From a virus, in IMG/VR virus record IMGVR_UViG_3300023176_006145, positions 1-28,624 of that record: DNA of 28,624 bases. One strand, given 5' to 3'. The notes under the pieces were generated by a model, which searched no databases, was not told where the DNA came from, and saw only the letters and a program-made list of their open reading frames with translations. This document shows, piece after piece, positions 18,064-28,624 of this stretch; position 1 is the stretch's first letter, and the number at the start of each line of letters is the position of its first letter. A program made the position numbers and the translations under genes.

Positions 18064-19920
18064 TTAACTTGATACTGGAATTTGTCCGACACCTGAAGAT
18101 CTTGAAGATGAAGTTAATTCATCTAAAATCACGTTTACATTAACACCAGATGGATCAATTGTTAGATATAAATCACGCAATGCAATAATATCATTAGACG
18201 TTGGGACTACTGAGATACTAATTTCTCCACTATCCCCCAATACACTGTTAATGTTGATGTTATTGATATTTATTTCACCTTTTTCATAATCTATAGAACC
18301 TATATTAGTACTGAAGTATTTTTTTACGTCTCCTACAAGTCTATAAACAGCAATAGTTCCTAAATCATCATATTTTTCAAAGAAAAATACAAATTCTGAA
18401 GGTTGCCCAGTAATCTTAAACCCATTTGAGACTATATTACTGTTTGGTGAAATTCTATTACCAAAACAAACTTCATAAGAAGCAAATACATTAGGAAAAA
18501 CTTTTAAATTCTTTCTCATCCTAATCCTGGTAATATTTGATGTAATACCAGGATCACTGTCATCAATAGTAGAAACTAATTTACTATATTTGAACTTACT
18601 ATTAAATTTATTAAGATCAAATCCTGTAGCAAAGTCTATAACGGTATTTCTGACAACATTTGCCAATTGAACCTGAGTTCTCTTACTTTTTCGAGAGTTG
18701 TAGTACACATAAGTATCAACATCAATATAAAGGAAGGAAGGATCTACTATTTCAGGAACAACTGTAAGTATTGTGTATTGTCTGAGTTTTCTAATCAAAT
18801 CCAATTTAGCACTTGTAGTTAGTGCAGATGCTCCAATTGGTTTTGCAGCAACAAAAACTTTACCATATTGTGGAGGGTTTGCTTCTTCACCTCCATATAC
18901 AGTTAAAGACTCTAAACCAGGACTAAGTTGTTTTACTAAAACTTCATAATCAGAAACAGTAACTGCTCTATTTTGTGCAGAAAAACTTCTTGGAGCAAGA
19001 AACTTAATTGAAGTAATACTTTCTGGATCTGCTCCCCCTGCAGAAAAATCTACTACAGTAATAGAGGGTTGAGATGCAGAATAAGAATTATTTGATTGAT
19101 CAGATAATCTTCCTATAAAGGAAAACTCAGAACAGTCATTACCAAGTGTTTTATCCGTAGTAATGTAAGAAATACTAATTTGATCATTATTTAATAATTT
19201 TCTACCAAATGTACCGTCACCAAAAATTAACTCAAATTGTTCATTTTTATTCTCTTGAATGAAATAAACCCGACTTTCCGAGTTTAATTGAGTAATATCT
19301 TCTACAAGTTTGTATGTCTGCGGTACAGCAAAATCTGTCTCATTAACTATTACCTGAATTAAATTTAAATCTGCGTTTGCATCTGGAATAATAAATTTTT
19401 GCTTGGTTGAAGTATCAACATTATAAGTAAAATTAAATAAATTTCCTTGATAAACTTCAATATCTTCAAACAACACCCTGGATCGTCCGCCATTATTGAG
19501 TGTAGTTTGTTTTGTTATTGGAGTTGGAATTGAAAATACAAAAGATCCATTGTCTCCGGTCCCGGTAAAGACACTTCCAGAATTTAATGTTAATTGAGTA
19601 ACTGAAGAGTTTACTGGAAGTAGTATATCAAGAGTTATTTTTGCTTTTGCCGCTGTAGCAGATCTTGGATTATAACCGATTGTTTGAGCAAGAGAAACTA
19701 CATTCTCTCGAATTGAAGCAGAATCAAGAAATACTTCATTTGCAACAAGATTGGCATTTAACGCACTATAATACGTATTATATGCTAATACATCAACCAA
19801 TTGAGATAATACAGAACCTTCAAAATTATAATCAGTAAAATTTGGTGAAGCACGCAAATACTCCCTCAAACTTTGTTTGACATCTTCAAAATCTAAATTA
19901 GTAACTTGATTAAATGCCAT
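18064..19920 (-). CDS. 6: Baseplate wedge subunit gp6
   Basis: 618 aa against 660 in T4. The N-terminus aligns with T4 gp6: LREYLRASPNFTDYNFEGS and LVDVLAYNTYYSALNAN match T4 IEWLNGQNEFLDYDFEGS and LCDLLAYNTLYIQQFGN (recalled). RENVVSLAQTIGYNPRSATA matches the equivalent SVVQAAQDNGYLPTSKSA. Around residue 300 is the signature GGADPESITSIKFLAPRSF followed by RAVTVSDYEVLV, the 'GG..dPEdi..ir.......R.vTa.DYe' block of gp6/gpJ-type baseplate proteins. gp6 dimers form the inner ring that links wedges around the hub. The ATG overlaps the last base of the gp25 stop (TAATG), so translation is probably coupled. Confidence 0.95.
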   Translation of the reverse strand: MAFNQVTNLDFEDVKQSLREYLRASPNFTDYNFEGSVLSQLVDVLAYNTYYSALNANLVANEVFLDSASIRENVVSLAQTIGYNPRSATAAKAKITLDILLPVNSSVTQLTLNSGSVFTGTGDNGSFVFSIPTPITKQTTLNNGGRSRVLFEDIEVYQGNLFNFTYNVDTSTKQKFIIPDANADLNLIQVIVNETDFAVPQTYKLVEDITQLNSESRVYFIQENKNEQFELIFGDGTFGRKLLNNDQISISYITTDKTLGNDCSEFSFIGRLSDQSNNSYSASQPSITVVDFSAGGADPESITSIKFLAPRSFSAQNRAVTVSDYEVLVKQLSPGLESLTVYGGEEANPPQYGKVFVAAKPIGASALTTSAKLDLIRKLRQYTILTVVPEIVDPSFLYIDVDTYVYYNSRKSKRTQVQLANVVRNTVIDFATGFDLNKFNSKFKYSKLVSTIDDSDPGITSNITRIRMRKNLKVFPNVFASYEVCFGNRISPNSNIVSNGFKITGQPSEFVFFFEKYDDLGTIAVYRLVGDVKKYFSTNIGSIDYEKGEININNININSVLGDSGEISISVVPTSNDIIALRDLYLTIDPSGVNVNVILDELTSSSRSSGVGQIPVSS

Positions 19921-20312
19921 TATACTCTTTCTAAGACAAGATTAAGGGACTGTTGATCTAAGGGAATGCCAACAATAGTATATTTTATCTGCAACTCTAA
20001 ACTATTTGTATATTCATCGTAAATTCCTTCTACTTCATCAAAAGTAATTCTTGGTTCAAAAGATTCTAATGTTATTTTTATCTGATTTGCAATATTATCT
20101 AACGCAACAGAACTAAAATTTTCAAATAAAACATTACCAATATCACTACCAAATAGTGGTTGGAAGGGTTTTTCACCAAATTGTGTCAAAACAAGCGTTC
20201 TTACTGCCTGCTTAATGGCATCTTCATTTTTTAAGACACCAACATCCCCAGTAATAGGATTTGCACTAAAACTGGGGTTTAAATCAACAAATTTTTTGGA
20301 TATAGTTGCCAT
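19920..20312 (-). CDS. 25: Baseplate wedge subunit gp25
   Basis: 130 aa; T4 gp25 has 132. Key family features are present: ALRTLV-like helix (IKQAVRTLVLTQFGEKPF), then FGSDIGNVLFENF, then a helix and FEPRITFDEVEGIYDEYTNSL, ending in a beta pair. This is the gp25/gpW (lysozyme-like) wedge fold, without lysozyme activity in current understanding. It binds gp6 and gp53 in the wedge and helps trigger sheath assembly. Its stop overlaps the gp6 start by one base. Upstream, TATAAAGT is a weak late-promoter candidate. The gene follows a 63-aa unknown gene after 25 bases. Confidence 0.94.
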   Translation of the reverse strand: MATISKKFVDLNPSFSANPITGDVGVLKNEDAIKQAVRTLVLTQFGEKPFQPLFGSDIGNVLFENFSSVALDNIANQIKITLESFEPRITFDEVEGIYDEYTNSLELQIKYTIVGIPLDQQSLNLVLERV

Positions 20313-20327
20313 TTTAGCATCTCTTAT

Positions 20328-20335
20328 ACTTTATA
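20328..20335 (-). promoter_or_regulatory. Possible degenerate late promoter before gp25
   Basis: The minus strand reads ATATATAAAGTATAAG just upstream of gp25. TATAAAGT differs from the late octamer TATAAATA at its last two bases. It lies in the 25-base gap between the 63-aa gene and gp25, 15 bases from the ATG. Position favours it, sequence match does not. Confidence 0.3.
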
Positions 20336-20337
20336 TA

Positions 20338-20529
20338 TCAGGTCAACCACTCGGCATAGTCATCAAAACCTCCTTTACCGCCACATGGACGACTTAAACG
20401 ATCCTCCGGTGGAGTATTTTTGGGTTTTTGTGCTTTTTTTAAGTAATAGTCCGCTCTGGGATCGGTAATTAGTACCATCCCAGACTCAATAAAATCAATA
20501 CTTTGATCTGGTATTGGATGATTTGCCAT
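20338..20529 (-). CDS. Hypothetical 63-aa protein before gp25
   Basis: A short, soluble, proline-rich protein (MANHPIPDQSIDFIESGMVL at the start; LSRPCGGKGGFDDYAEWLT at the end). The C-terminal CGGKGGFDDYAEWLT is the most distinctive part and I do not recognise a family. The start is well supported: GAGG lies six bases upstream of the ATG in GAGGTAAACATG. That GAGG lies in the 3' arm of a hairpin. Gene order places it just ahead of gp25 and gp6, so a small late or assembly protein is plausible. No catalytic or metal-binding set is visible beyond a single cysteine. Confidence 0.68.
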   Translation of the reverse strand: MANHPIPDQSIDFIESGMVLITDPRADYYLKKAQKPKNTPPEDRLSRPCGGKGGFDDYAEWLT

Positions 20530-20534
20530 GTTTA

Positions 20535-20569
20535 CCTCAAAAACTCTGTTTCCAGAACTTTTTGGGAGG
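20535..20569 (-). promoter_or_regulatory. Hairpin covering the Shine-Dalgarno site of the 63-aa gene
   Basis: On the minus strand CCTC..AAAAA..TCTG pairs with CAGA.TTTTTGAGG around a GAAA loop: 13 base pairs interrupted by a two-base bulge and a small internal loop. The 3' arm contains the GAGG that precedes the ATG at 20529. It could act as a translational shutter or as a terminator-like stem after the 168-aa gene. Pairing is read from sequence; function is inferred. Confidence 0.45.
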
Positions 20570-20584
20570 TTTCTATCTCCAATT

Positions 20585-20592
20585 TATTTATT
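20585..20592 (-). promoter_or_regulatory. Possible late promoter (AATAAATA)
   Basis: The minus strand reads CAATAAATAAATTGG at the end of the 168-aa gene. AATAAATA differs from the T4 late octamer at the first base. It would place a start just ahead of the hairpin leader of the 63-aa gene and so feed gp25, gp6 and the gp7-type gene. There is one mismatch and some chance of coincidence in AT-rich DNA. Confidence 0.35.
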
Positions 20593-21094
20593 GCCAATGA
20601 TTATTGGGTCTTTCCCACCAAAAATGAAGGTCTTCAACATCATCATCATAGTAAAGTGACACCAGATCACTCTTAAATTTACTATGAATGTTCTCACAAA
20701 GAGACAATGTGTAGTAATTTTTGGGTGTAAACGTCTCCATAGACTGTGTAATCCAGGTGTAGTTGTCACCACGAATGACTCCTGCCTCAATCAGGACGAA
20801 TTTTTCCCAATCTAACACCCATTCAGCATAATTAAGTTCAAACTGAACTTTGTAATTGAACTTGTCTTCATCAGGAAATGGCACATTTACTGCCTCAACA
20901 TGAAAAATCTCCCCATCCATGGTGAGTGAATGGGAGAGATGTTGAGTAACAATACTGGAATAATCAGGAGAAACGCATAAAAAACAGGTATTTGATGGGT
21001 GAATGTCCCATTTTTCCATTTCTATACGATATGCCATCTCCTGGATGAGTGCCATCTCCTTATCTTGGGATATGTAAAGGAGAGGTTTAGTCAT
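20588..21094 (-). CDS. Hypothetical 168-aa protein
   Basis: A soluble protein of unknown function. The N-terminus (PLLYISQDKEMALIQEMAYR) and the pattern of strands and helices would suit an alpha/beta fold. The segment WEKFVLIEAGVIRGDNYTW recalls the PRPP-binding loop of type I phosphoribosyltransferases (hydrophobic strand, two acidic residues, T/S-G-x-T). The second acidic residue is Ala here and the T-G-x-T loop is absent, so an active enzyme is doubtful. It ends with an aromatic, acidic tail (LYYDDDVEDLHFWWERPNNH). The ATG overlaps the stop of the 44-aa gene (ATGA), so the two are coupled, and both follow the sigma70-type promoter near 21440. It therefore looks like an early or constitutive gene placed among late structural genes. 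Confidence 0.72.
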   Translation of the reverse strand: MTKPLLYISQDKEMALIQEMAYRIEMEKWDIHPSNTCFLCVSPDYSSIVTQHLSHSLTMDGEIFHVEAVNVPFPDEDKFNYKVQFELNYAEWVLDWEKFVLIEAGVIRGDNYTWITQSMETFTPKNYYTLSLCENIHSKFKSDLVSLYYDDDVEDLHFWWERPNNHWQ

Positions 21095-21225
21095 TTTTCT
21101 TCTGTGTAAGTGGGTTTGTGAAAATTACAATACTCATTAAAGGTGATTTTCATCTCCTTATTGCTCAAATTGCAATGTTCTGCTGCTTTTGGAAGGTTCC
21201 ACTTTGCTGTAAACAGCATTTCCAT
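21091..21225 (-). CDS. Small 44-aa protein of a cyanophage type
   Basis: The translation begins MEMLFTAKWNLPKAAEHC and continues NLSNKEMKITFNEYCNFHKP. The arrangement 'W.LPKAA..C.L...EMK.tFnEY...H.P' matches small conserved cyanophage proteins as I remember them; no function is known to me. The stop overlaps the next start in ATGA. A GTG at 21249, overlapping the preceding TGA, would add eight residues (VRPETRES). I prefer the ATG at 21225 because GAG lies five bases upstream and the family usually begins near this MEML. The helix-rich sequence and Leu-Ser-x-x-E turn could suit a small DNA- or protein-binding role, but this is a guess. Confidence 0.72.
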   Translation of the reverse strand: MEMLFTAKWNLPKAAEHCNLSNKEMKITFNEYCNFHKPTYTEEK

Positions 21226-21245
21226 TGATTCTCGGGTCTCAGGTC

Positions 21246-21395
21246 TCACTTACCTTGACCACGATAGGGTTTACGTGCCTTGTTACGACTGGTAGCAGCA
21301 TACTTTGTATTCTTGCTGTTACCTTGACGGGTGCTCTTGGGTTTGCCTGGTTGAAATTGAACGCCAGAAAGACCGATTTTGGAGCGAGTTGCCAT
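21246..21395 (-). CDS. Small basic 49-aa protein (KPYRGQGK tail)
   Basis: The protein starts MATRSKIGLSGVQFQPGKPK and ends SRNKARKPYRGQGK. About a quarter of residues are Lys or Arg and acidic residues are absent, so nucleic-acid binding is likely. The middle TRQGNSKNTKYAATS and the RKPYRGQGK tail resemble a small basic protein common in cyanophages, function unknown to me. It is the first gene after the TTGACA-17-TATGCT promoter. The predicted leader of about 22 bases has no Shine-Dalgarno site but contains CAATCAAACAC, similar to the leaders of the GC-rich genes at 26-27 kb. The 44-aa gene follows 20 bases after its stop. Confidence 0.75.
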   Translation of the reverse strand: MATRSKIGLSGVQFQPGKPKSTRQGNSKNTKYAATSRNKARKPYRGQGK

Positions 21396-21424
21396 GAATG
21401 TAGTGTTTGATTGACGACGTTGTA

Positions 21425-21453
21425 AGCATAACAGGAGTAAACCCCTTTGTCAA
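21425..21453 (-). promoter_or_regulatory. Sigma70-type promoter TTGACA-17-TATGCT
   Basis: On the minus strand a consensus -35 TTGACA (21453-21448) is followed by exactly 17 bases and TATGCT (21430-21425), four of six matches to TATAAT. Transcription should begin near 21418, about 22 bases before the ATG of the basic 49-aa gene. The -35 hexamer forms part of the loop and stem of the hairpin that ends the PAAR operon. Host RNA polymerase could read this promoter unaided, which would make the three downstream small genes early. Confidence 0.65.
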
Positions 21454-21460
21454 GGGGTTT
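21439..21460 (-). terminator. Terminator-like hairpin after the PAAR gene
   Basis: AAACCCCTT and AAGGGGTTT form a perfect nine-base-pair stem around a four-base loop (GACA on the minus strand). The 5' edge touches the TAA stop of the PAAR gene. Downstream on the minus strand is TTTACTCC, so the U-tract is short and termination may be partial. It overlaps the -35 element of the next promoter. Confidence 0.6.
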
Positions 21461-21765
21461 TAGAACGCTCCTGCAAAGACATTGAGACTACCTACGGCAA
21501 TCCTATCTCCACAGGAAATAAAGTCTCCTGCCCTACCAGGAGGTCTCATGTTGAAATAGACGTTCAGAGGACCCTGTGAGATCGCCCTGACGAGGTGTGG
21601 GGGCGGTGGATCAGTGCCAGGGCATGAATGGGGTACAAAGAGGTCTCCGACACGTCCTGCAAGACTTAAATTAACATAGATGTTTTTTGATGAACCAACA
21701 AGATTTGTTGGAGGATAACAAATATGTCCAGTGCTTGCTGCACCAAGAAATGTACAACCTTTCAT
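21460..21765 (-). CDS. PAAR-type baseplate spike tip protein (gp5.4-like)
   Basis: 101 aa; T4 gp5.4 has 97. The sequence shows the PAAR pattern: GHICYPPTNLVGSS, then strand repeats NIYVNLSLAGRVGDLFVPHS and LNVYFNMRPPGRAGDFISCG, and a closing AVGSLNVFAG. These repeats form the three-sided cone that caps the central spike. Candidate zinc ligands are His14, His46, Cys48, His57 and Cys85. In T4 gp5.4 sits at the point of the gp5 spike and crosses the outer membrane first. It is the last gene of a coupled operon: its ATG overlaps the stop of the 251-aa gene by four bases. The location two to three genes from gp25 and gp6 fits the T4 order 5.4-6. Confidence 0.86.
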   Translation of the reverse strand: MKGCTFLGAASTGHICYPPTNLVGSSKNIYVNLSLAGRVGDLFVPHSCPGTDPPPPHLVRAISQGPLNVYFNMRPPGRAGDFISCGDRIAVGSLNVFAGAF

Positions 21766-22517
21766 GGGATTACTATTTTATTGGGATTAACGTATGGATT
21801 TGGTGGTCTACGACCAGTTTGTGCTTCTACCTTTTGTACAAAGCGTTTTGATGAAATATCCTTATTATCATATACAATTTGCCTAATTGTATATGTTCCA
21901 GCACCAATTCCACAAGAACTGGTGATGACTAAAGTATATTGCACAACAATAACATACCTTGGATCTGGAAAATAATGAATCATATGTTCAGGATTAGCAA
22001 TTTCCTCAATCATCCCAACAGTAGGAGTACCTGCAATAGGAGCACCAAGAACAGGATTAAGAAATGTTCCTTTACTAACTGCTGTTAATTGATTCAATGT
22101 ACCAAATTTTGCAGTATATCCATCCTGTCCAACAATAGGTGTTGGAGCATGTGCTGGATTAACAGTAGAATCATCACGATACTTATACTCTTTATTTGGA
22201 AACAAATAATCAGTATAAGTACCTGTAGCATTTAACACTGCAGTCACAGGACCAACAAGAGGTCCGGTTGTAATAACACCAGAACCACCAGTAGTAACCG
22301 TTCCTGGTGTTAATGATAACACAATACCAGGATCACCATTATATGGTGCTGGTGCAATGATTGGTGTGAAATTTGTTACGGTAATACTCCACACCTCAGG
22401 AATAGGAGGTGTTCCGGGACAAAATGTACCTACCCAACTATTAGGAGTCCAAATAACCGGTAAACTAACCGTACTTGCTCTTGGTTGAATTGGTGTATAG
22501 GTTACTGGTATTGGCAT
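21762..22517 (-). CDS. Structural-region protein, paralogue of the 613-aa neighbour
   Basis: 251 aa, rich in Pro, Thr and Gly, beta-strand-like, without signal peptide or membrane helix. Collinear blocks are shared with residues about 265-610 of the neighbouring upstream gene. GTYTDYLFPNKEYKYRD and AHAPTPI near residue 100 match GNYTRLLFPNETWTYAFD and EHLPVLL. LNQLTAV matches PSQLLTAT. TLVITSSCGIGAGTYTIRQI near 195-215 matches TFTVTSS and GAATIQLRQN. Both end with an Arg/Pro/Asn-rich tail. The gene follows the 613-aa gene after three bases and overlaps the PAAR start by four, so it belongs to a spike or hub operon. A virion role is inferred from this context; no named family is recognised. 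Confidence 0.8.
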   Translation of the reverse strand: MPIPVTYTPIQPRASTVSLPVIWTPNSWVGTFCPGTPPIPEVWSITVTNFTPIIAPAPYNGDPGIVLSLTPGTVTTGGSGVITTGPLVGPVTAVLNATGTYTDYLFPNKEYKYRDDSTVNPAHAPTPIVGQDGYTAKFGTLNQLTAVSKGTFLNPVLGAPIAGTPTVGMIEEIANPEHMIHYFPDPRYVIVVQYTLVITSSCGIGAGTYTIRQIVYDNKDISSKRFVQKVEAQTGRRPPNPYVNPNKIVIP

Positions 22518-22520
22518 AAT

Positions 22521-24362
22521 TTAGAATCCATCAGTTCTTGGAGGTTCTTCCAGGGTATTTGGTTTTGGATCACGTCTATTTGGTCTTGAATCAAGAATTT
22601 CAGAATAACGTACCTGACCATTTATATAATTATTTAACACATTTTGTCGGAGTTGTATTGTAGCAGCACCAAATCCACTACCAATAGGATCTGGAATATA
22701 ACGATACACAGGTCCTGAAGGTGTTTCTACTGGAGGAACACCAACAGATACAGTTCCACGGTAATTTGTAGTTCCTATTGGAGGTCCAGTCTCCAGTGTT
22801 GCAGTACCTGCAAGGATAACACGATATAAATTACCATCATTGGTAACATAATCCCCAACCGCATATGTTCCTGCTGCCCATGGAGCACTATTCCATGCAG
22901 GCATACTACTTGTTACCGTAAATGTATAGGTTACATCACGATTTACAACTTGATCTTGCTCATATTTTATAATCTCTGCATCTGTTGGAAACTCTTGAGA
23001 TAAATCAAATACAATTCCATTAATCCTTGATTGATTACTATATGTTTGATCAATCTGATATGCATCAAATACTTCGTTAGGATCTTGTGGAAGTACTTTT
23101 AGTGCTCCTGATGCAGCAGCAAGTTCATTAAGTTTAGTCGCTGAAAAATAAGTAACGGTTATTTCATTACCCGTCTCAGTACCAACGGTTAATTCTTCAA
23201 CTTCATCGGTTACATCTGTTGCTGTTAATAACTGTGATGGATCAAATAATCTTGGTCCCTCACTATCAAGTAATACAGGTAAATGCTCTGGTATAATTGT
23301 ATAATCTTTACTTTTATCAAATGCATATGTCCATGTCTCATTGGGAAATAATAATCTTGTATAATTACCCTCTACATGAATGGTAATCGTCTCTGGATAG
23401 GTTGCACTGATATTGATATTACTAAGATTATTCTTATCACAAGTAACGGTCTGTACTACATTACCATTACCATCTTTTCTAATTAATTGTACAATAAGAT
23501 CTTGATCAATATTGGGTGATGTCCCAAGTATTGGTGGATCAAAACCATTAAACGTTACTGTAACTGTTTCTGCTTTCTCAATCGCAAGTAATTGTGGATC
23601 TACTGTACCATTATTTGAATTCTGTGACGTGTAATAACTATTGATCTGACTATACCAATCAGGACGACCATCAATATCAAGACCAATACAATCAAGTCTA
23701 AAATCTAACCATCGACCAAATCCAATCTCATTATTCCCCGCAAGATCATCACCATATGCTATCACTCGATCATCTGGTGTTGAATATTGAGTCGCACTGA
23801 AATCTTGACTTACAAATGTATCAACATTCATAAACTCAATTGGATTACTTGTAAAGTTTGTTGGTACTTTCTGTTGTATACGATATACACCACCAACATA
23901 CTCCTTTAGATTTGCTTTATGTGCTGAATATGTTGTCGGTGGACTGACTGGTGGTTGAACCTGTGGATCAATCCATTGCTCTGGAAAATCAATGTCACTA
24001 CCTTCTACTCCAACTTCATATAACACATAGATCCCATCAACTTGTCCAATGTTATATGCATACGATGATAATATAACTGATTGATATGTAGTGTCTCCCT
24101 CTGCGTCTGTACCCTCTACTACAAAGACATACGTATCATCAACATTCGGTGGTGTAATTGCCCATGTAACTACACCCGTACTCTCTACAATATTAAATGA
24201 TGCAGCATCTGTACCACTAAGAGCATAAGATACTGCACCTGCTATTGTACCCCATGCAACAGTCTCCCCCGCCACAGTACTCCCACTGTATTGTGCTGTT
24301 GTTGCAGTACCTGGATTGTTAATCTCTCCAAATGTCTCAACAATTGTTGGATAATATGGCAT
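22521..24362 (-). CDS. Multi-domain structural protein with Ig/cadherin-like N-terminus (613 aa)
   Basis: Residues about 30-100 resemble an immunoglobulin or cadherin-like repeat (VAWGTIAGAVSYALSGTDAA, SFNIVESTGVVTWA, DTYVFVVEGTDAEGDTTY). Residues about 265-480 and 565-610 form the region shared with the 251-aa protein. Between them, near 485-540, lies WNSAPWAAGTYAVGDYVTND followed by GNLYRV, which looks like a small carbohydrate-binding module of the CBM5/12 type (aromatics around 'Y..GD.V...G..Y'). No catalytic residues or membrane segments are evident. Host-surface or glycan contact is a reasonable inference. The ATG overlaps the stop of the 75-aa gene (TAATG) and the 251-aa gene starts three bases after its stop, so this is one coupled operon ending at the PAAR tip. 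Confidence 0.82.
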   Translation of the reverse strand: MPYYPTIVETFGEINNPGTATTAQYSGSTVAGETVAWGTIAGAVSYALSGTDAASFNIVESTGVVTWAITPPNVDDTYVFVVEGTDAEGDTTYQSVILSSYAYNIGQVDGIYVLYEVGVEGSDIDFPEQWIDPQVQPPVSPPTTYSAHKANLKEYVGGVYRIQQKVPTNFTSNPIEFMNVDTFVSQDFSATQYSTPDDRVIAYGDDLAGNNEIGFGRWLDFRLDCIGLDIDGRPDWYSQINSYYTSQNSNNGTVDPQLLAIEKAETVTVTFNGFDPPILGTSPNIDQDLIVQLIRKDGNGNVVQTVTCDKNNLSNINISATYPETITIHVEGNYTRLLFPNETWTYAFDKSKDYTIIPEHLPVLLDSEGPRLFDPSQLLTATDVTDEVEELTVGTETGNEITVTYFSATKLNELAAASGALKVLPQDPNEVFDAYQIDQTYSNQSRINGIVFDLSQEFPTDAEIIKYEQDQVVNRDVTYTFTVTSSMPAWNSAPWAAGTYAVGDYVTNDGNLYRVILAGTATLETGPPIGTTNYRGTVSVGVPPVETPSGPVYRYIPDPIGSGFGAATIQLRQNVLNNYINGQVRYSEILDSRPNRRDPKPNTLEEPPRTDGF

Positions 24363-24589
24363 TATTCCTCATCAAGATTTACATTCTCTTTAAAATTTAA
24401 CATCCAAAAATCTTCCGCTCCTTCATAATCTCTGAAGTAATACGTCTCCCCATTCGGTGCATCAAGAATAAATCTGTCAATAAAGGAATCATAACTGATC
24501 ATAGGTTCGTCAATAAGCATCTTGTCCTCGTTTGTACTAAACTCCAAATACTGTGAATAATCATCCATGTCCCAATCCTCTACAGACAT
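24362..24589 (-). CDS. Hypothetical acidic 75-aa protein
   Basis: A very acidic small protein (MSVEDWDMDDYSQYLEFSTN at the start, LNFKENVNLDEE at the end) with the central strand-like segment DRFILDAPNGETYYFRDYEG. I recognise no family. The start is strong: AGGGAG lies five bases before the ATG, among the best ribosome sites in the window. Its stop overlaps the start of the 613-aa gene in TAATG. As first gene of the operon ending with the PAAR protein, it may be a chaperone or assembly partner of those beta-rich proteins, which is speculation from position and charge. Confidence 0.68.
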   Translation of the reverse strand: MSVEDWDMDDYSQYLEFSTNEDKMLIDEPMISYDSFIDRFILDAPNGETYYFRDYEGAEDFWMLNFKENVNLDEE

Positions 24590-24607
24590 CTGTACTCCCT
24601 ATTCTTT

Positions 24608-24616
24608 CTTATATAG
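24608..24616 (-). promoter_or_regulatory. Possible promoter (CTATATAAG) of the PAAR operon
   Basis: The minus strand reads GACTATATAAGAAAG 18 bases before the ATG at 24589. It resembles the late octamer TATAAATA imperfectly and could equally be a -10 element (TATATA). An operon promoter is expected here because the gap to the previous gene is 45 bases. The match is weak. Confidence 0.35.
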
Positions 24617-24634
24617 TCCCCGTAACCGATTTTT

Positions 24635-24826
24635 TTATTTCTTAATCCTATACTGCCCACACCAGAAATCCTCTGGTACTATCCTCCAATCCTTATACGT
24701 AGATTGTTTCTCATTCGCATATGGCATCGGTGCATGATATCGACACGAATACCATTCCTTGCCATCCTTGGCAGGAAATTGGTGTGCCCTTCGAGCATAA
24801 TAACAATTACTACAATGTTCAGTCAT
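24635..24826 (-). CDS. Small four-cysteine zinc-ribbon-like protein
   Basis: 63 aa. Cysteines 5 and 8 form a CxxC (HCSNCYYAR); the other pair is Cys28 (YSCRYHAP) and Cys56 (DFWCGQY). The order 'CxxCxYxR...CR.xxP...W..V..DxWCGxY' recurs in many small phage proteins and most likely binds one zinc ion; this family resemblance is by memory. The function is unknown, with nucleic-acid or protein binding as the usual guess for such ribbons. Upstream bases (TTTTTTTAAATTATG) show no Shine-Dalgarno site. It stands alone between two spacers of about 45 bases. Confidence 0.75.
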   Translation of the reverse strand: MTEHCSNCYYARRAHQFPAKDGKEWYSCRYHAPMPYANEKQSTYKDWRIVPEDFWCGQYRIKK

Positions 24827-24873
24827 AATTTAAAAAAAGGGTTTTGGTGAAATTTTTTCCTGGCGATTTTTTT

Positions 24874-25245
24874 TTATTGCGAAAATAATTTTTCAAGTTC
24901 GGATTTCATCCCAAACACATAAGGTTCGTTTTCTTTAAACCATATGATGATTTCTATATTATGCATATTACTAAACACTCCATGGATTTGGTCGAATAAC
25001 TCCTCCCGCAATTCACTCTCATCCCTCAAATAATGTTCACTACTGTTCTCAATTCCATTAAATTTATAATGATTAATGAGAACTGTTACAATATCATCTG
25101 TTTTTAGTAATCCTTGTATCCTACCCTCAGTTAATATATTGATCATCTCTTCTCGATCATTAATCAGTTCCTCAAATAAATCATCATAATCCATCATCTC
25201 ATCAAGAGTGATTCCATTGTTATTGTTGTCGTTGGGGGTTTTCAT
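24874..25245 (-). CDS. Hypothetical acidic protein, start at internal Met
   Basis: 123 aa when started at the ATG at 25245 (MKTPNDNNNNGITLDEMMDY). A Met 13 codons earlier (25284) is possible, but no ribosome site precedes it, whereas AGG lies eight bases before the chosen ATG (GCAGGTAATTTTAATG). The protein is acidic and helical (DLFEELINDREEMINILTEG; LREELFDQIHGVF) with a C-terminal strand IEIIIWFKENEPYVFGM. I do not recognise a family. It follows a 400-base gene-free stretch of palindromes and is AT-rich like the bulk of the phage. Confidence 0.62.
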   Translation of the reverse strand: MKTPNDNNNNGITLDEMMDYDDLFEELINDREEMINILTEGRIQGLLKTDDIVTVLINHYKFNGIENSSEHYLRDESELREELFDQIHGVFSNMHNIEIIIWFKENEPYVFGMKSELEKLFSQ

Positions 25246-25369
25246 TAAAATTACCTGCGAAAAATTTTTTGGAATTAGTTGCATTTTAAGGTCGCTGGGG
25301 GACCTTTGTAGGTTAGGAGGGACCCACGCATTTAAAACGGGGCATTTGAGGGGATTAAAGGGGGGGGGT

Positions 25370-25375
25370 ATTATA
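25370..25375 (-). promoter_or_regulatory. Candidate -10 element TATAAT before the 123-aa gene
   Basis: The minus strand reads GATATTATAATACC followed by nine C. TATAAT is a perfect -10 hexamer, but no TTGACA-like -35 lies 16-18 bases upstream. The start would fall within or next to the C run, giving a leader of about 115 bases for the gene at 25245. AT-rich surroundings raise the chance of coincidence. Confidence 0.35.
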
Positions 25376-25387
25376 ATATCACATAAC

Positions 25388-25403
25388 GCCCCTAATTAGG
25401 GGC
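25388..25403. repeat. Perfect 16-base palindrome GCCCCTAATTAGGGGC
   Basis: The sequence equals its own reverse complement over 16 bases. It sits at the edge of the 30-base direct repeats. It may be a binding site for a dimeric protein or a short stem in RNA. Confidence 0.8.
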
Positions 25404-25481
25404 ACTGTTTAATTATAATAACTTAGTGAGTTAGTATTATTAACTGTAACTCACTGTTTAATTATAATAAATTAGTGAGTT
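25403..25481. repeat. Palindromic direct-repeat array (left copy)
   Basis: Two 30-base units, 25403-25432 and 25452-25481, start CACTGTTTAATTATAATAA and end TTAGTGAGTT, differing at one base and lying 49 bases apart. AACTCACT (25448-25455) and AGTGAGTT (25474-25481) frame the second unit as an inverted repeat. Between the units AGTGAGTTA and TAACTCACT form another. The element AACTCACTG recurs in the array at 28.04-28.17 kb. Confidence 0.85.
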
Positions 25482-25555
25482 GTTTATACAAATATTTTGC
25501 AATTTGCAAAATTGGAATACTTTGCATTTTGAGTTGTTAATAAGAACTGTCTGAG

Positions 25556-25602
25556 AGTTTCTGATACTTTTTAGGAAGATTTGAAAAAAAGTATCAGAAA
25601 CT
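25556..25602. repeat. 17-base-pair perfect inverted repeat
   Basis: AGTTTCTGATACTTTTT (25556-25572) and AAAAAGTATCAGAAACT (25586-25602) are exact reverse complements around 13 bases. On either strand this would fold as a long hairpin. It lies just past the intrinsic terminator of the KTSC-like gene and may add a second stop or RNA end protection. Confidence 0.85.
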
Positions 25603-25624
25603 GTGGGTTTTGATAATTTATAAA

Positions 25625-25649
25625 AAAAGGGGTCAAATTGACCCCTTTT
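25625..25649 (-). terminator. Intrinsic terminator after the KTSC-like gene
   Basis: On the minus strand AAAAGGGGTC and GACCCCTTTT pair perfectly over ten bases around AATTT, followed by a run of T (TTTTTTT counting the stem end) and ATAAA. It begins six bases after the stop of the KTSC-like gene. The A/T symmetry means it could also work for plus-strand transcripts. Confidence 0.82.
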
Positions 25650-25655
25650 CGATTA

Positions 25656-25901
25656 TCACCACTTGAGAGGAGTAGTGATAACTTTCTCTGCCTGAATGCA
25701 GTGCTTATTTACCCAGAACCCAAGGGACACAGTAGATGACATTTTGAGGGCAAGGATTGCACGGCGGGAGACATTACTGTAGAAGTAAGTATTTCCTCCC
25801 TTAAATGTCACCATGGCGTAGGCATTCTTGAGAGAAACCATGATCGATTCCACGCAAGTGGAAGAACGCTTGGCGGGAGAATCGACGAGGAGAGTGATCA
25901 T
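25656..25901 (-). CDS. KTSC-domain-like small protein (81 aa)
   Basis: The frame is open further upstream, but the ATG at 25901 (MITLLVDSPAKRSSTCVESI) fits the short leader pattern of this block, and the upstream extension is promoter and hairpin DNA. Residues about 15-70 follow the KTSC pattern: Ser near the start, a strand (NAYAMVTFKGGNTYFYSNVS), a helix (RRAILALKMSS), then a S.G.w.N element (VSLGFWVNKH). KTSC is a short domain found in phage and bacterial proteins, sometimes fused to nucleic-acid enzymes, with no settled function known to me. Family assignment is by pattern. A TATACT element lies 31 bases upstream and a strong terminator follows. Confidence 0.75.
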   Translation of the reverse strand: MITLLVDSPAKRSSTCVESIMVSLKNAYAMVTFKGGNTYFYSNVSRRAILALKMSSTVSLGFWVNKHCIQAEKVITTPLKW

Positions 25902-25938
25902 TGAAGTTCGTGTGTTTGTTTGAACTGAAGTCAGTATA
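25902..25938 (-). promoter_or_regulatory. Promoter and conserved leader of the KTSC-like gene
   Basis: TATACT (minus strand, 25938-25933) is followed by GACTTCAGTTCAAACAAACA and then CACGAACTTCA before the ATG. The same GACTTCAGTTCAAAC follows the -10 of two other genes in the block (ATG at 26181 and 27039). No -35 and no Shine-Dalgarno site are seen. Confidence 0.62.
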
Positions 25939-25960
25939 GACCCCATGGGGGGCGATCGTG

Positions 25961-25979
25961 GGGGGTGGTGGACACCCCC
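25961..25979 (-). terminator. G/C hairpin after the 63-aa GC-rich gene
   Basis: GGGGGTG and CACCCCC form a seven-base-pair stem around five bases, 10 bases past the stop of the 63-aa gene. There is no U-tract afterward on the minus strand, so it may protect the RNA end or slow polymerase rather than act as a classic intrinsic terminator. A nearly identical stem occurs at 26849-26870. Confidence 0.5.
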
Positions 25980-25989
25980 TCGACTGTCC

Positions 25990-26181
25990 TCAGATGGCGC
26001 TGGTGCCCACGCTTGCCCACAGGGCAAGGCGCAGGGTGCTCGCCTTGCTGACCTGCTCGGCAGAGCGACCCATGGCACGGGCGCCCGCCTTGAGGTCGTT
26101 GCGGGTCACGTCTGCCAGGGAGGAGGCACGCTTGCCAGTGATGATGTTGCGTGCTGCCTGGAGGGTCTGTTGCTTGGTCAT
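25990..26181 (-). CDS. Hypothetical 63-aa protein in the GC-rich block
   Basis: The start at 26181 gives MTKQQTLQAARNIITGKRAS and an end ALWASVGTSAI. The frame extends 11 codons further up, but those codons are the promoter and conserved leader. The protein is basic and mostly helical, Ala/Arg/Ser-rich, with a weakly hydrophobic end (LRLALWASVGTSA). I recognise no family. Its leader is the best example of the shared element (TATAATGACTTCAGTTCAAA, then CAAACACC) and contains no Shine-Dalgarno site. GC-rich codon use (third positions mostly G or C) contrasts with the structural genes. Confidence 0.6.
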   Translation of the reverse strand: MTKQQTLQAARNIITGKRASSLADVTRNDLKAGARAMGRSAEQVSKASTLRLALWASVGTSAI

Positions 26182-26209
26182 GGTGTTTGTTTGAACTGAA
26201 GTCATTATA
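26182..26209 (-). promoter_or_regulatory. Promoter and conserved leader of the 63-aa GC-rich gene
   Basis: A perfect TATAAT (minus strand, 26209-26204), preceded by GTGCC, is followed by GACTTCAGTTCAAACAAACA, then CC and the ATG. The context GTGCCTATAATGA is identical before the gene at 26816. No -35 hexamer is visible 16-18 bases upstream, where the DNA is a G/C hairpin. Confidence 0.65.
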
Positions 26210-26222
26210 GGCACAGGGTGTG

Positions 26223-26240
26223 CCCCCCCGCGAGGGGGGG
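26223..26240 (-). terminator. Seven-base-pair C/G hairpin with a four-base loop
   Basis: Seven C and seven G enclose GCGA (TCGC on the minus strand), with outer arms GGCACA and TGTGCC extending it. It lies 13 bases past the stop of the 52-aa gene and just upstream of the TATAAT of the next gene. It is probably a terminator or RNA end structure, though no U-tract follows. Confidence 0.55.
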
Positions 26241-26252
26241 TGTGCCAGTGTG

Positions 26253-26411
26253 TCAGGCGTCCGCCCAGTTCAGGGCGTCCTCGATTGCGTCATCCAGATC
26301 AGAAAGCAGATCGGAGAGGTCGTCCTGATAACGATTCAGATCATCCTCAATCCGATCATACATCTGATCTTCGATCTGCAGTTCCATCAGGTAGGCGTCA
26401 GAGACAGGCAT
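26253..26411 (-). CDS. Very acidic helical 52-aa protein
   Basis: From the ATG at 26411 the product runs MPVSDAYLMELQIEDQMYDR through ending DDAIEDALNWADA. Roughly a third of residues are Asp or Glu, and spacing of Leu, Ile and Tyr suggests an amphipathic helix or helical pair. Small acidic phage proteins often bind host proteins or mimic DNA; nothing here is specific enough to choose. The longer frame upstream overlaps promoter DNA (TATACTGATCAAGTCAACC), so I use the internal start. A seven-base-pair C/G hairpin follows the stop. Confidence 0.6.
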   Translation of the reverse strand: MPVSDAYLMELQIEDQMYDRIEDDLNRYQDDLSDLLSDLDDAIEDALNWADA

Positions 26412-26442
26412 GGTGTCGTGTGTGGTTGACTTGATCAGTATA
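26412..26442 (-). promoter_or_regulatory. Promoter and leader of the acidic 52-aa gene
   Basis: CGCCTATACTGA carries TATACT (minus strand, 26442-26437). The leader ATCAAGTCAACCACACACGA then CACC precedes the ATG. It keeps the 'TCAA...AACCACACAC' flavour of the shared leaders but is not the same sequence. No -35 or Shine-Dalgarno site is seen. Confidence 0.55.
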
Positions 26443-26446
26443 GGCG

Positions 26447-26463
26447 GGCGGTGTCTATCCGCC
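26447..26463 (-). terminator. Short hairpin after the 41-aa membrane protein gene
   Basis: GGCGG and CCGCC pair around seven bases, 12 bases past the stop at 26476 and just before the next -10 element. Five base pairs is modest, and no U-tract follows. Confidence 0.35.
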
Positions 26464-26475
26464 AGTGCCTTAGGG

Positions 26476-26601
26476 TCAGTTAGCGGAGCGGCACACCTCG
26501 GCGGTTGCCAGGGAGGCACCTGCCTTCACCCCTTCGATCAGGTAGTCCCCGATCAGCAGGGTGGCAGCGATGGCGACGGCGATGGAGAGGAAGCGGTTCA
26601 T
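26476..26601 (-). CDS. Small membrane or secreted 41-aa protein
   Basis: The ATG at 26601 gives MNRFLSIAVAIAATLLIGDY followed by LIEGVKAGASLATAEVCRSA and Asn. Residues 4-18 form one hydrophobic segment preceded by a positive residue, as in a signal peptide or single membrane helix. AGASLATA could serve as a signal peptidase site, but its distance from the core is long. A single Cys is near the end. No family is recognised. It could sit in the inner membrane of the host. Upstream, the -10 candidate (TGTAGA, 26631-26626) is poor, and the leader ends ACACACCACACC before the ATG. Confidence 0.55.
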   Translation of the reverse strand: MNRFLSIAVAIAATLLIGDYLIEGVKAGASLATAEVCRSAN

Positions 26602-26642
26602 GGTGTGGTGTGTTGTCTGGGGTAGTCTACAGGGGCGCCCGC

Positions 26643-26816
26643 TCAGTGGCGGTCGGAGATGTTCCACACTCCCCACTGTCCACGCTCAGGGGCAGGGGTG
26701 AGGATCTCGGTGCCAGCGGCAACGTCTGCCTTAGAGGCGGCAGACCGTGCCATCATGGCGTTGTGCTGACGGGTGTAGTCAGCGAGGATGGCGGCGAAGT
26801 CAGGTGTTTTGTTCAT
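26643..26816 (-). CDS. Hypothetical 57-aa protein, possibly leaderless
   Basis: The translation starts MNKTPDFAAILADYTRQHNA and ends RGQWGVWNISDRH. The first 35 residues look helical and the end holds two Trp in a strand-like stretch. I recognise no family. A perfect TATAAT ends only six bases before the ATG (TATAATGACAGCATG), so the expected transcription start coincides with the start codon and the message may be leaderless. Codons use mainly G or C at the third position, as in the rest of the block. Confidence 0.6.
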   Translation of the reverse strand: MNKTPDFAAILADYTRQHNAMMARSAASKADVAAGTEILTPAPERGQWGVWNISDRH

Positions 26817-26822
26817 GCTGTC

Positions 26823-26828
26823 ATTATA
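26823..26828 (-). promoter_or_regulatory. -10 element TATAAT directly before the 57-aa gene
   Basis: GTGCCTATAATGACAGCATG on the minus strand. The hexamer is perfect, the preceding GTGCC is shared with the promoter at 26204, and only six bases separate it from the ATG. No -35 is evident. Confidence 0.62.
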
Positions 26829-26848
26829 GGCACGGGGTCTGGCGGTTT

Positions 26849-26870
26849 GGGGGTGCCAGTGGACACCCCC
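26849..26870 (-). terminator. G/C hairpin after the 53-aa gene
   Basis: GGGGGTG and CACCCCC pair over seven bases around an eight-base loop, seven bases past the stop at 26878. The stem is the same as that at 25961-25979. No U-tract follows. Confidence 0.5.
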
Positions 26871-26877
26871 TCAGGCG

Positions 26878-27039
26878 TCACATGCCGTTCAGGAAGTCTG
26901 CCATTGCCTCTTGATACTCTTCAAAGGTAGCGAAGCGATCAGCGAAGCGGGCAGGCACCTGCCGGGTCTCGGGTTGCGCCTTGGGCAGGTCACGACCCTT
27001 GGCAAGGATCTGCTGAGCGTAGGGGTTGGAGTGAGTCAT
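26878..27039 (-). CDS. Hypothetical 53-aa protein in the GC-rich block
   Basis: The ATG at 27039 gives MTHSNPYAQQILAKGRDLPK and the end RFATFEEYQEAMADFLNGM. The last 20 residues form a likely amphipathic helix (F, Y, M, F and L on one face), while the middle is Pro- and Arg-rich and probably flexible. I do not recognise a family. It carries the shared leader GACTTCAGTTCAAACGACAG then ACC, with -10 CATAAT. No Shine-Dalgarno site is present. A G/C hairpin follows. Confidence 0.58.
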   Translation of the reverse strand: MTHSNPYAQQILAKGRDLPKAQPETRQVPARFADRFATFEEYQEAMADFLNGM

Positions 27040-27068
27040 GGTCTGTCGTTTGAACTGAAGTCATTATG
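27040..27068 (-). promoter_or_regulatory. Promoter and conserved leader of the 53-aa gene
   Basis: CGCCCATAATGACTTCAGTT on the minus strand continues CAAACGACAGACC to the ATG. CATAAT (27068-27063) is one base from consensus. The first 15 bases after it (GACTTCAGTTCAAAC) equal those before the genes at 25901 and 26181. Confidence 0.6.
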
Positions 27069-27135
27069 GGCGATCCGGTCGCCCGGTGCTGTATCGGTTG
27101 ATACCGTTTTGGAAATTAGTTAGTGCCGGACGAAT

Positions 27136-27219
27136 AGTGATAGAAACTGCACGAGGAGATAGTAACTCAAACGGGGCACGATGATGCATAACACCATCGT
27201 GCAAAGAATTTCTATCACT
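27136..27219 (-). repeat. Nested inverted repeats after the 203-aa gene
   Basis: AGTGATAGAAA (27136-27146) pairs with TTTCTATCACT (27209-27219), which overlaps the stop codon, and GCACGA (27149-27154) with TCGTGC (27197-27202). The second arm can instead pair locally: GCACGATG (27176-27183, first base mismatched as G) with CATCGTGC (27195-27202). The two foldings exclude each other, so this may be a switch or a bulky terminator. Confidence 0.6.
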
Positions 27220-27826
27220 TAGCGACACCATTCTGCCGCCGCCAGCATACCCAAGTGATCGCTTGAATCTGGGCAGCACTATACTTAGTGCCTTCCAGGT
27301 TGTTGATAGTAACTGCTGCCTCACGGTAAGCATCACTAACCTGCTTGTAGAGTTTATCACTAATGGCAGGAACTTCGTTGAGTGAGGTGTACAAACCCCG
27401 CCAGATATTGAAGGCGTGACCATCAACGGTGATCTCATCACACCCTCCATTGGTATAGATGCCACGGAAGAATGCAATGGTTTTGTTGCCTTTAAGGATG
27501 GCACAAATGTTGTCGCTTGAGTCAATCTCACACTCAAGAATTGTGATCGCTTTGTCTTTGTTGCCAGTGAAAGTGCAGACCTTAGGGTAATCAAACCCCA
27601 TGCAATATGCCTTGATCATCTGCTCAGCATCAAGGATATTGCGATCCCATTTGTTGTTCGGAGACAGTGCAGATACAACCCCCACAACTGTAGCGAGAGG
27701 CAGGTTGTATTTGTCACTCAAACCCTGACAAATAGTGTGGGCATTGTTGTACCAAACCGTACCCTCTTGAGTGTCTACAGGCGTTGCCTGCATGTAGATA
27801 GAGAGAATGTTGCGAATGTCAGGCAT
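27215..27826 (-). CDS. Phage protein of 203 aa (DUF7178-like pattern)
   Basis: The layout is one I associate with a widespread phage family, possibly DUF7178. A first helix block contains TVWYNNAHTICQGLS, then the conserved VVGVVSALSPNNKWDRNI. A middle lysine-rich turn reads LKGNKTIAFFRGIY. A key motif TVDGHAFNIWRGL carries a conserved Asp and His, and the C-terminus AAQIQAITWVCWRRQNG is again typical. The helical sequence with VDGHA recalls DNA glycosylase-like helix folds, but no catalytic assignment is safe. G/C content is intermediate. The ATG follows AATTCAGTTCACTG, which partly matches the shared leaders; -10 is at best TAGGAT. It has no Shine-Dalgarno site. Confidence 0.75.
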   Translation of the reverse strand: MPDIRNILSIYMQATPVDTQEGTVWYNNAHTICQGLSDKYNLPLATVVGVVSALSPNNKWDRNILDAEQMIKAYCMGFDYPKVCTFTGNKDKAITILECEIDSSDNICAILKGNKTIAFFRGIYTNGGCDEITVDGHAFNIWRGLYTSLNEVPAISDKLYKQVSDAYREAAVTINNLEGTKYSAAQIQAITWVCWRRQNGVAK

Positions 27827-27853
27827 CAGTGAACTGAATTGCTTGCGTCCATC

Positions 27854-27943
27854 CTACAGCATCAGGGCACCCTGCCAACCCCCTGAACCATCAGCGGTGC
27901 TGATCAGTGCCATCAGATGCCCTGATGTTTCATTCTGTGACAT
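27854..27943 (-). CDS. Possible 29-aa mini-gene
   Basis: An ATG at 27943 opens MSQNETSGHLMALISTADGS then GGWQGALML and a TAG that overlaps the TAGGAT ahead of the 203-aa gene. Spacing (start 43 bases below the palindromic side, leader GCCAGTGCCCCAAACGCGAG) fits the layout of the other small genes here. It is very short, and the -10 (CATAGG) is weak. It could be a leader peptide coupled to the 203-aa gene or chance. Confidence 0.35.
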   Translation of the reverse strand: MSQNETSGHLMALISTADGSGGWQGALML

Positions 27944-28039
27944 TGCTCGCGTTTGGGGCACTGGCGTGCCTATGCTGGATGGGCGGCATGAGGGAGGGGG
28001 GCACCCTCAGTTGATTGTTGATAAGAATTAAACAACACT

Positions 28040-28165
28040 GTCTAATAGTAATACAAACTCACTGTGTATTACTATTAGACAACACTGTGTATTATTAATA
28101 CAAACTCACTGTGTATTATTAATACAAACTCACTGTGTATTACTATTAGACAGTGAGTTTGTATT
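28040..28165. repeat. Hairpin array with constant AAACTCACTGT loops (right copy)
   Basis: AAACTCACTGT occurs at 28055-28065, 28102-28112 and 28126-28136. The first is framed by exact 15-base complements GTCTAATAGTAATAC and GTATTACTATTAGAC. The second is framed by two copies of GTATTATTAATAC, complementary except at the centre. The third is framed by GTATTATTAATAC and GTATTACTATTAGAC, which pair partly. In addition AATACAAACTCACTGT (28121-28136) is exactly complementary to 28150-28165. AACTCACTG is shared with the array at 25.4 kb. Confidence 0.88.
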
Positions 28166-28169
28166 ATAA

Positions 28170-28385
28170 TTACCCTGTAATTATATCTTGAAGTGTTTCT
28201 TCATCATATTGATCCTTAATTTCTTGAATTAATTCATCAACAGATTCATAATCTTTAGTGATATTATCTACCAAACTTTCAAATGCAAACACTTCTAATG
28301 TTTTGTAATCCATACCATCAATGATAAACATTGCATACTTTTCAACAATTTCTGAGAATTGCATAGTTTTGGTGGATTCTGTCAT
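28170..28385 (-). CDS. Small acidic helical 71-aa cyanophage-type protein
   Basis: The sequence is AT-rich in its codons and helical: MQFSEIVEKYAMFIIDGMDY, TLEVFAFESLVDNI, then VDELIQEIKDQYDEETLQD. The arrangement 'y..tL..fa.e.l..n....s.deL..Ei...yd.e.l.d' occurs in small acidic early proteins of cyanophages as I remember them; no function is known. ATG is preceded by CTTTCTTCAAAA, without a ribosome site. The stop lies in a short hairpin (ATAATTA/TAATTAT, 28166-28184) that could end transcription next to the palindromic array. Confidence 0.75.
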   Translation of the reverse strand: MTESTKTMQFSEIVEKYAMFIIDGMDYKTLEVFAFESLVDNITKDYESVDELIQEIKDQYDEETLQDIITG

Positions 28386-28420
28386 TTTTTGAAGAAAGTG
28401 ATGGTTTTCAGTGAAAGTGT

Positions 28421-28618
28421 TCAGGTTAGTGCAATCTCATAGTTTATGGATTTAATACACCAACCAGTAGAAGTAGTGATTTCTTCAATGAGATCATCTT
28501 CATCATCTGCCTCCCAGAAACCAAGAGAATCATCAGTGATGTCAATCATCTCATCTTCTGATAGTTCCTCACAACTATCAGAGAAGTCAAAGAGAATGTC
28601 AGAAACAATGAACTTCAT
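28421..28618 (-). CDS. Conserved cyanophage-type 65-aa acidic protein
   Basis: The start MKFIVSDILFDF and the block LGFWEADDEDDLIEEIT followed by TSTGWCIKSINYEIALT are features I recognise from a small protein repeated across T4-like cyanophages ('v.DieFDF...eE...i....ig.WeaddeddLveEITtatGWCIKSIdY'). No function is known to me. The ATG is only six bases from the window edge, so upstream signals cannot be judged. It is followed after 35 bases by the 71-aa gene. Confidence 0.82.
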   Translation of the reverse strand: MKFIVSDILFDFSDSCEELSEDEMIDITDDSLGFWEADDEDDLIEEITTSTGWCIKSINYEIALT

Positions 28619-28624
28619 GTGTTT

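Follow-up and report, generated by a model that had tools for sequence, protein, structure and literature searches.

The locus examined here raises the question of why a GC-rich block of small phage genes stands between two related palindromic arrays, and what these arrays do. It is located in the virus record IMGVR_UViG_3300023176_006145 of IMG/VR, which was analyzed over its whole length of 28,624 bp (35.5% GC) and is called the window below. The contig belongs to a T4-type, Kyanoviridae-like cyanophage. It encodes the baseplate wedge proteins gp6 (18064-19920) and gp25 (19920-20312), both on the minus strand, the latter of which fixes the locus as well as the phage group. The closest isolates are Synechococcus phages of the Kyanoviridae, and no isolate match was found at the DNA level for the first 20 kb of the window. 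As all genes discussed lie on the minus strand, “downstream” refers to lower coordinates. A preliminary description interpreted the block as a movable or exchangeable cassette, or as a domain bounded by structural or regulatory elements. Our analysis points to a modular gene-exchange locus, closed at both ends by hairpin arrays that would limit read-through between the early genes, the block and the late operon. We consider the chances of this explanation to be about even.

The two arrays differ in organization. Array 1 (25403-25490) contains two 30-nt copies (25403-25432 and 25452-25481), followed by an inverted tail up to approximately position 25490. Array 2 (28036-28172) is composed of 24-bp palindromic units such as CACTGTGTATTATTAATACAAACT, some of which are inverted, resulting in a partly alternating orientation. 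The core sequence AACTCACTG or its complement, allowing one mismatch, occurs eight times in the window. Seven of these copies are inside the arrays, three in array 1 (one exact) and four, all exact, in array 2. The total corresponds to the chance level (7.6 expected), and it is the clustering that is unusual. Inverted 8-mers cover 87 bases of a 160-bp interval at array 1 and 116 bases at array 2, compared to maxima of 80 and 71, respectively, in 2,000 dinucleotide shuffles. These are the two most palindrome-dense intervals of the contig. With their inverted-repeat content above all shuffles, the arrays reported at the two block ends are real. Within the window, AACTCACTGT is confined to the arrays, and it was not found in the four complete genomes searched.

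Strong folding of the arrays is predicted at the RNA level, with z-scores of -7.0 and -8.8 for array 2 and of -4.1 and -3.8 for array 1; no shuffled sequence was equally stable. In the environmental relative L014, array 2 reaches -9.3 and -7.6. The hairpin beside the stop codon of the upstream neighboring gene is formed by AATACAAACTCACTGT/ACAGTGAGTTTGTATT in the window and by AATACACTAAGAGTTAG/CTAACTCTTAGTGTATT in L014, and is fully paired in both. The array stems thus remain paired between relatives despite sequence change. Based on their position, their strong folding relative to shuffles and this retained pairing, the arrays most likely act as transcription walls. A known RNA family was rejected as an explanation, since a scan of positions 20000-28624 against Rfam 15 gave no match at the gathering score.

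Both arrays border on conserved elements, which supports the reading of the block as a domain bounded by structural or regulatory elements. The stop codon of a conserved anchor gene, which encodes a 71-aa DUF7326 protein (PF24012, phrog_1352; 28170-28385, minus strand), marks the start of array 2. Array 1 adjoins element C (25258-25339, minus strand), as we call a composite stretch conserved ahead of the gp25 late operon. In 19 phages, element C can be aligned over ~100 bp ahead of the first late gene, and the searches for it gave one site in each genome. Its conserved parts are TCCTAACCTACAAA, then TTCCC or TATCCC, and in most relatives a GATAAATA box, of which the window has no clear copy. 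We take this box to resemble the T4 late promoter. Element C is non-coding, with TCCTAACCTACAAA standing ~25-30 bp before the GATAAATA box, and its counterparts in relatives include L007:4080-4320 and L009:3890-4040. The first gene after element C (24874-25245, minus strand) encodes a protein starting with MKTP. The locus is a fixed site between the DUF7326 anchor and the putative promoter element of the late gp25-gp6 baseplate operon.

Array 1 is not the only palindromic structure at its end of the block. Besides array 1 and element C, the 407-bp spacer at this end contains three hairpins, one of them terminator-like, one perfect over 17 bp and one a GC hairpin. The terminator-like hairpin AAAAGGGGTCAATTTGACCCCTTTTTTT (25622-25649, minus strand), identified from sequence and folding, directly follows the last block gene, b7. 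It is followed by the perfect 17-bp inverted repeat with a 13-nt loop (25556-25602), located between b7 and array 1, and the GC hairpin GCCCCTAATTAGGGGC (25388-25403) lies between array 1 and element C. In several genomes, a GC hairpin directly precedes element C, for example GGGGGCAGTAATATGCCCCCTTTTTT in S-RIM32, and a hairpin with a T-run is found just before element C in S-PM2, S-RIM32 and others.

The block itself is made up of a DUF7178 gene, b1 (PF23802, phrog_3842; 203 aa, ~47% GC; 27215-27826), and six tiny genes after it, all on the minus strand: b2 (53 aa, phrog_649; 26878-27039), b3 (57 aa, phrog_10986; 26643-26816), b4 (41 aa, with an N-terminus that is hydrophobic by eye; 26476-26601), b5 (52 aa, acidic; 26253-26411), b6 (63 aa; 25990-26181) and b7 (81 aa, phrog_7365, weakly KTSC-like; 25656-25901). 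No informative Pfam or PHROG function was found for any block protein. The spacers are short and mostly GC-rich, and follow a common order of a hairpin, TATAAT or a near form, and a leader ending at the start codon. Judged from sequence and folding, the stem-loop directly upstream of the putative promoter is clear for b2, b3, b5, b6 and b7, and weaker for b1 and b4. A promoter-leader repeat, CTATACTGACTTCAGTTCAAACAAACAC before b7 (25912-25939), recurs before b6 (26183-26210) and b2 (27042-27069), in each case on the minus strand, and CTATA(A/C)TGACTTCAGTTCAAAC or a near form is common to the three leaders. The leader of the window is also present at the same locus in S-PM2, G001, G002 and Sf-FR1; a few genomes have one or two copies at other places.

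The GC contrast between the block and its flanks was confirmed, with 57% GC in the island (25701-27300) against 35.5% in the contig. Of the two composition boundaries, one is sharp and the other gradual. The left edge is abrupt, rising from 37 to 59% near 25.8 kb, whereas the right edge slopes through 61, 50, 45, 50, 39 and 30% in consecutive 300-bp intervals, because the DUF7178 gene adjoining array 2 has a GC content of only ~47%. The GC skew is locally reversed at 25201-27300, the plus-strand skew being positive there and mostly negative elsewhere in the contig. The GC-rich character is shared by relatives: the interval from DUF7326 to element C measures 1.1-3.9 kb and has 48-55% GC in all nine genomes measured, with a genome GC of 36-43%. 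A gp25 was detected in 16 phage sequences, of which three are shorter contigs and the others complete or near-complete genomes. In 12 of the 16, GC content over the whole sequence peaks 2.7-6.7 kb upstream of gp25; Sf-FR1, Syn1, P-TIM68 and S-CREM1 are the exceptions. Neither this count nor that of the nine genomes is a set of independent observations, as the phages are related.

In complete isolates, the frame is fixed and runs from the DUF7326 gene through variable small genes and element C to the first late genes and gp25-gp6. Wherever gp25 could be placed, the locus is upstream of it. Most block genes are present, in order, in the close environmental relatives L014-L020. The identity of b6 in the closest relatives amounts to 90-94%, and b3 is the block gene with the widest distribution. 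Gene order is altered in other phages. While the window has b2-b3-b4-b5-b6-b7, the order is b2-b7-b3 in S-PM2 and b4-b7-b3 in S-CAM1, so that b7 has changed its position relative to b3 and b4. Compared across these genomes, the block is a fixed gene-exchange site in which exchange proceeds gene by gene, and not one mobile cassette. The term “exchangeable” is thus appropriate for single genes within the locus, but not for the block as a whole.

A cassette moving as a unit together with its flanking repeats would account for the related repeats on both sides and for the GC contrast, and the arrays of Sf-FR1 do surround different genes. However, the block occupies the same place between the same anchors in all relatives, its genes move singly, and blocks without arrays are common. 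Block and arrays are not present or absent together, as is seen in S-PM2, S-H9-1, S-CAM3 and others, as well as in Sf-FR1. Neither a recombinase nor a target duplication was seen, and the repeats are absent elsewhere in the complete genomes. A unit moving whole was rejected on the basis of the array-less blocks, the single-gene exchange and the Sf-FR1 arrays; this explanation is largely refuted and very improbable.

Arrays of the 24-bp class are found at one or both block ends in the window, G001, G002, L018, G009 and Sf-FR1, and are kept at both ends in the window, G001 and G002. L019 and L020 carry the block genes with an array 1 variant but lack array 2. The array 1 variant is likewise present in L015, whose contig stops close to the site of array 2. 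In Sf-FR1, genes 62-66 lie between the arrays; only the KTSC-like last of these genes shows detected homology to the window block, and the b3 homologue is located outside the arrays. This isolate (PV340855.1), which infects a laboratory strain of Synechococcus, carries both window-class arrays at 56201-56440 and 58341-58500 and is a good experimental system.

The preliminary description had considered that such arrays might occur at many unrelated intergenic sites. This was not found: in the complete relatives searched, the arrays are confined to the locus, and high-scoring palindrome intervals are limited to it in most of them. Enterobacterial repetitive extragenic palindromic (REP) sequences and bacterial interspersed mosaic elements (BIME) are alternately oriented palindromic units at intergenic, 3' positions. 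The window arrays share this orientation and placement, but instead of being dispersed they are limited to a single locus in each of the complete relatives searched. A REP-like dispersed repeat was therefore rejected, given also that AACTCACTGT is limited to the arrays within the window and absent from the four complete genomes searched. An exact array word in L012 falls in an apparent coding sequence, and the sole exact array word among the genome contigs searched, in a Saccharofermentans contig, was taken as chance. A conserved single CAAACTCACTGTGTATTA site, apparently intergenic and without an array, is present in two viral contigs of higher GC (L010:428-456 and L011:1890-1918).

The restriction to one locus also bears on the possibility that the arrays are functionless by-products, left in a hypervariable spacer by replication slippage or inverted duplication. 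Copy number and sequence do vary among close relatives, as a by-product would. Against this stand the absence of such arrays elsewhere in the complete genomes searched, their conserved position at both ends in the window, G001 and G002, and the full pairing of the stems. We regard a functionless origin as distinctly improbable.

In the explanation we favor, the block would be a set of small early genes, most of which have a stem-loop and a TATAAT-like promoter-leader of their own. This would allow recombination, possibly through the repeated leaders, to add, remove or reorder single genes while leaving the operon intact. The arrays most likely act at the RNA level, as tandem hairpins in the end spacers. 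Array 2 would end or slow transcription that enters the block from the AT-rich early genes. Array 1, together with the further hairpins and the terminator in the 407-bp spacer, would act likewise on transcription running out of the block towards the late operon.

Several observations weigh against walls of this kind. The GC block is found without these arrays in S-PM2, S-H9-1, S-H9-2, S-CAM1, S-CAM3, Sf-CH11 and S-RSM4, so the arrays are not essential to the locus, and inverted duplication can produce new palindromes even if pairing is not under selection. Most array hairpins are AT-rich and lack a clear U-run; as judged by eye, a GC-rich stem with a U-run is found in the hairpin after b7 and not in most array hairpins. 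A simple terminator scan gave four sites, no more than expected by chance. None of the four belongs to the arrays themselves, one being the GC hairpin next to array 1; the hairpin after b7 was not among the matches. A simple promoter scan was equally unremarkable (11 sites against 6.0 ± 3.0 expected), and the case for the TATAAT boxes therefore comes from the repetition of the leader and from its position rather than from the scan. Finally, the arrays fold similarly well on both strands, as expected of a protein-binding DNA palindrome, and the strand preference of palindrome folding is mixed.

The arrays might be operators, bound by a phage or host protein that controls the adjacent promoters. 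The regular 24-bp spacing, the internal dyads and the presence of both unit orientations would fit such a role, as would the location upstream of the putative DUF7178 promoter and of element C. The units, however, change fast between close relatives (CACTGTGTAT versus CACTAAGTAT, and others), which is unusual for the site of a single protein, and no regulator gene was recognized nearby. Operators seem rather unlikely to us.

A further explanation concerns DNA replication or packaging. The phage lambda origin and the T4 origins oriE and oriF are iterated origins with repeated dyads beside AT-rich DNA, and oriF is located near gene 25. The arrays are likewise repeated dyads beside AT-rich DNA near gp25, with a 24-bp dyad repeat resembling that of iterated origins, and could be the DNA signal at which replication or packaging starts. 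They differ from these origins in their fast sequence change and their absence in several relatives. In 11 of the 16 sequences, the most palindrome-dense interval of the whole sequence falls within the 8 kb ahead of gp25, both kinds of palindrome described below taken together. Near this locus, just downstream of the S-PM2 ORFanage, Puxty 2015 (PMC4503421) reported a 2-3-fold read density, for which DNA ends were proposed. A single theta origin has been predicted in Syn9, according to a review (PMC2984593). In addition, the records of four isolates, S-H9-1, S-H9-2, S-BM3 and S-SCSM1 (MW117966, MW147367, OQ319121 and MK867354), open less than 7 kb upstream of gp25. These are four out of ~18 judged, after looking, not to follow the usual start convention; their starts may be assembly breaks, and the ~14 other unoriented records start elsewhere.

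The palindromes themselves do not behave as one signal. Their sequences differ between phages, and folding separates the 24-bp boundary arrays from a second kind, in which a long hairpin stands in the leader of a KTSC-type gene or close to it, so that a single feature behind all palindrome hot spots was rejected. This second kind is found 5-7.5 kb upstream of gp25 in S-PM2, S-RIM32, Syn1, S-H9-1, S-RSM4 and S-CAM3, which are without the arrays, and in the first five of these it takes the place of the supposed signal. Nothing comparable in palindrome density was found at the locus in S-CAM1, Sf-CH11, S-H9-2 and P-TIM68, and a turn of the genome-wide GC skew at the locus was looked for without being found. 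A start signal for replication or packaging is thus unlikely. Its extended form, in which the palindrome-dense DNA upstream of gp25 is a replication or headful packaging start whose breakage or copying makes the GC-rich locus and the ORFanage hot spots of gain and loss, appears quite unlikely. The KTSC-type leader hairpin is long, AT-rich and near-perfect, follows a conserved promoter region with TATAAT, termed element D, and is possibly an attenuator. Its sites include L009:7290-7480, positions 19401-19600 of the S-PM2 record, and a position near 58.9 kb in Syn1.

The gene-by-gene exchange proposed here has a parallel in the promoter early stem-loops (PeSLs) of T4-like phages. As cited in Puxty 2015 (PMC4503421), Arbiol 2010 and Comeau 2014 described them as promoter-terminator composites mediating modular shuffling. 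A stem-loop and a putative promoter before each small gene, and an order shuffled between relatives, agree with that account, and the reordering of the block genes is what PeSL-mediated shuffling would give. The leader sequence of the block, in contrast, is cyanophage-specific, and the AT-rich 24-bp end arrays are not part of the PeSL description as cited there. Few PeSLs were reported in the S-PM2 ORFanage, which neighbors the locus (Puxty 2015, PMC4503421).

The hot spot itself is already known. Sullivan 2010 described the region between gp46 and gp25 as a hot spot of gain and loss of small genes of unknown function, and the locus agrees with it in genome region, small genes, and gain and loss. 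The S-PM2 ORFanage deletion (5.8-15.3 kb), in comparison, lies beside the GC island and not inside it. The literature passages dealing with the hot spot contain no mention that we found of the anchors, the GC island, element C or the palindromic arrays, all of which are new here relative to these passages.

If the arrays were after all a start of replication or packaging, they would bear on where these genomes begin to be copied or packaged, a question for which we found no experimental answer. In either case, a vaguely known hot spot of small genes becomes a defined locus with fixed ends. Cargo genes can therefore be searched for between DUF7326 and element C in T4-type cyanophages. The modular locus with hairpin-closed ends also offers a testable account of how these phages may trade single genes without damage to the neighboring late operon.

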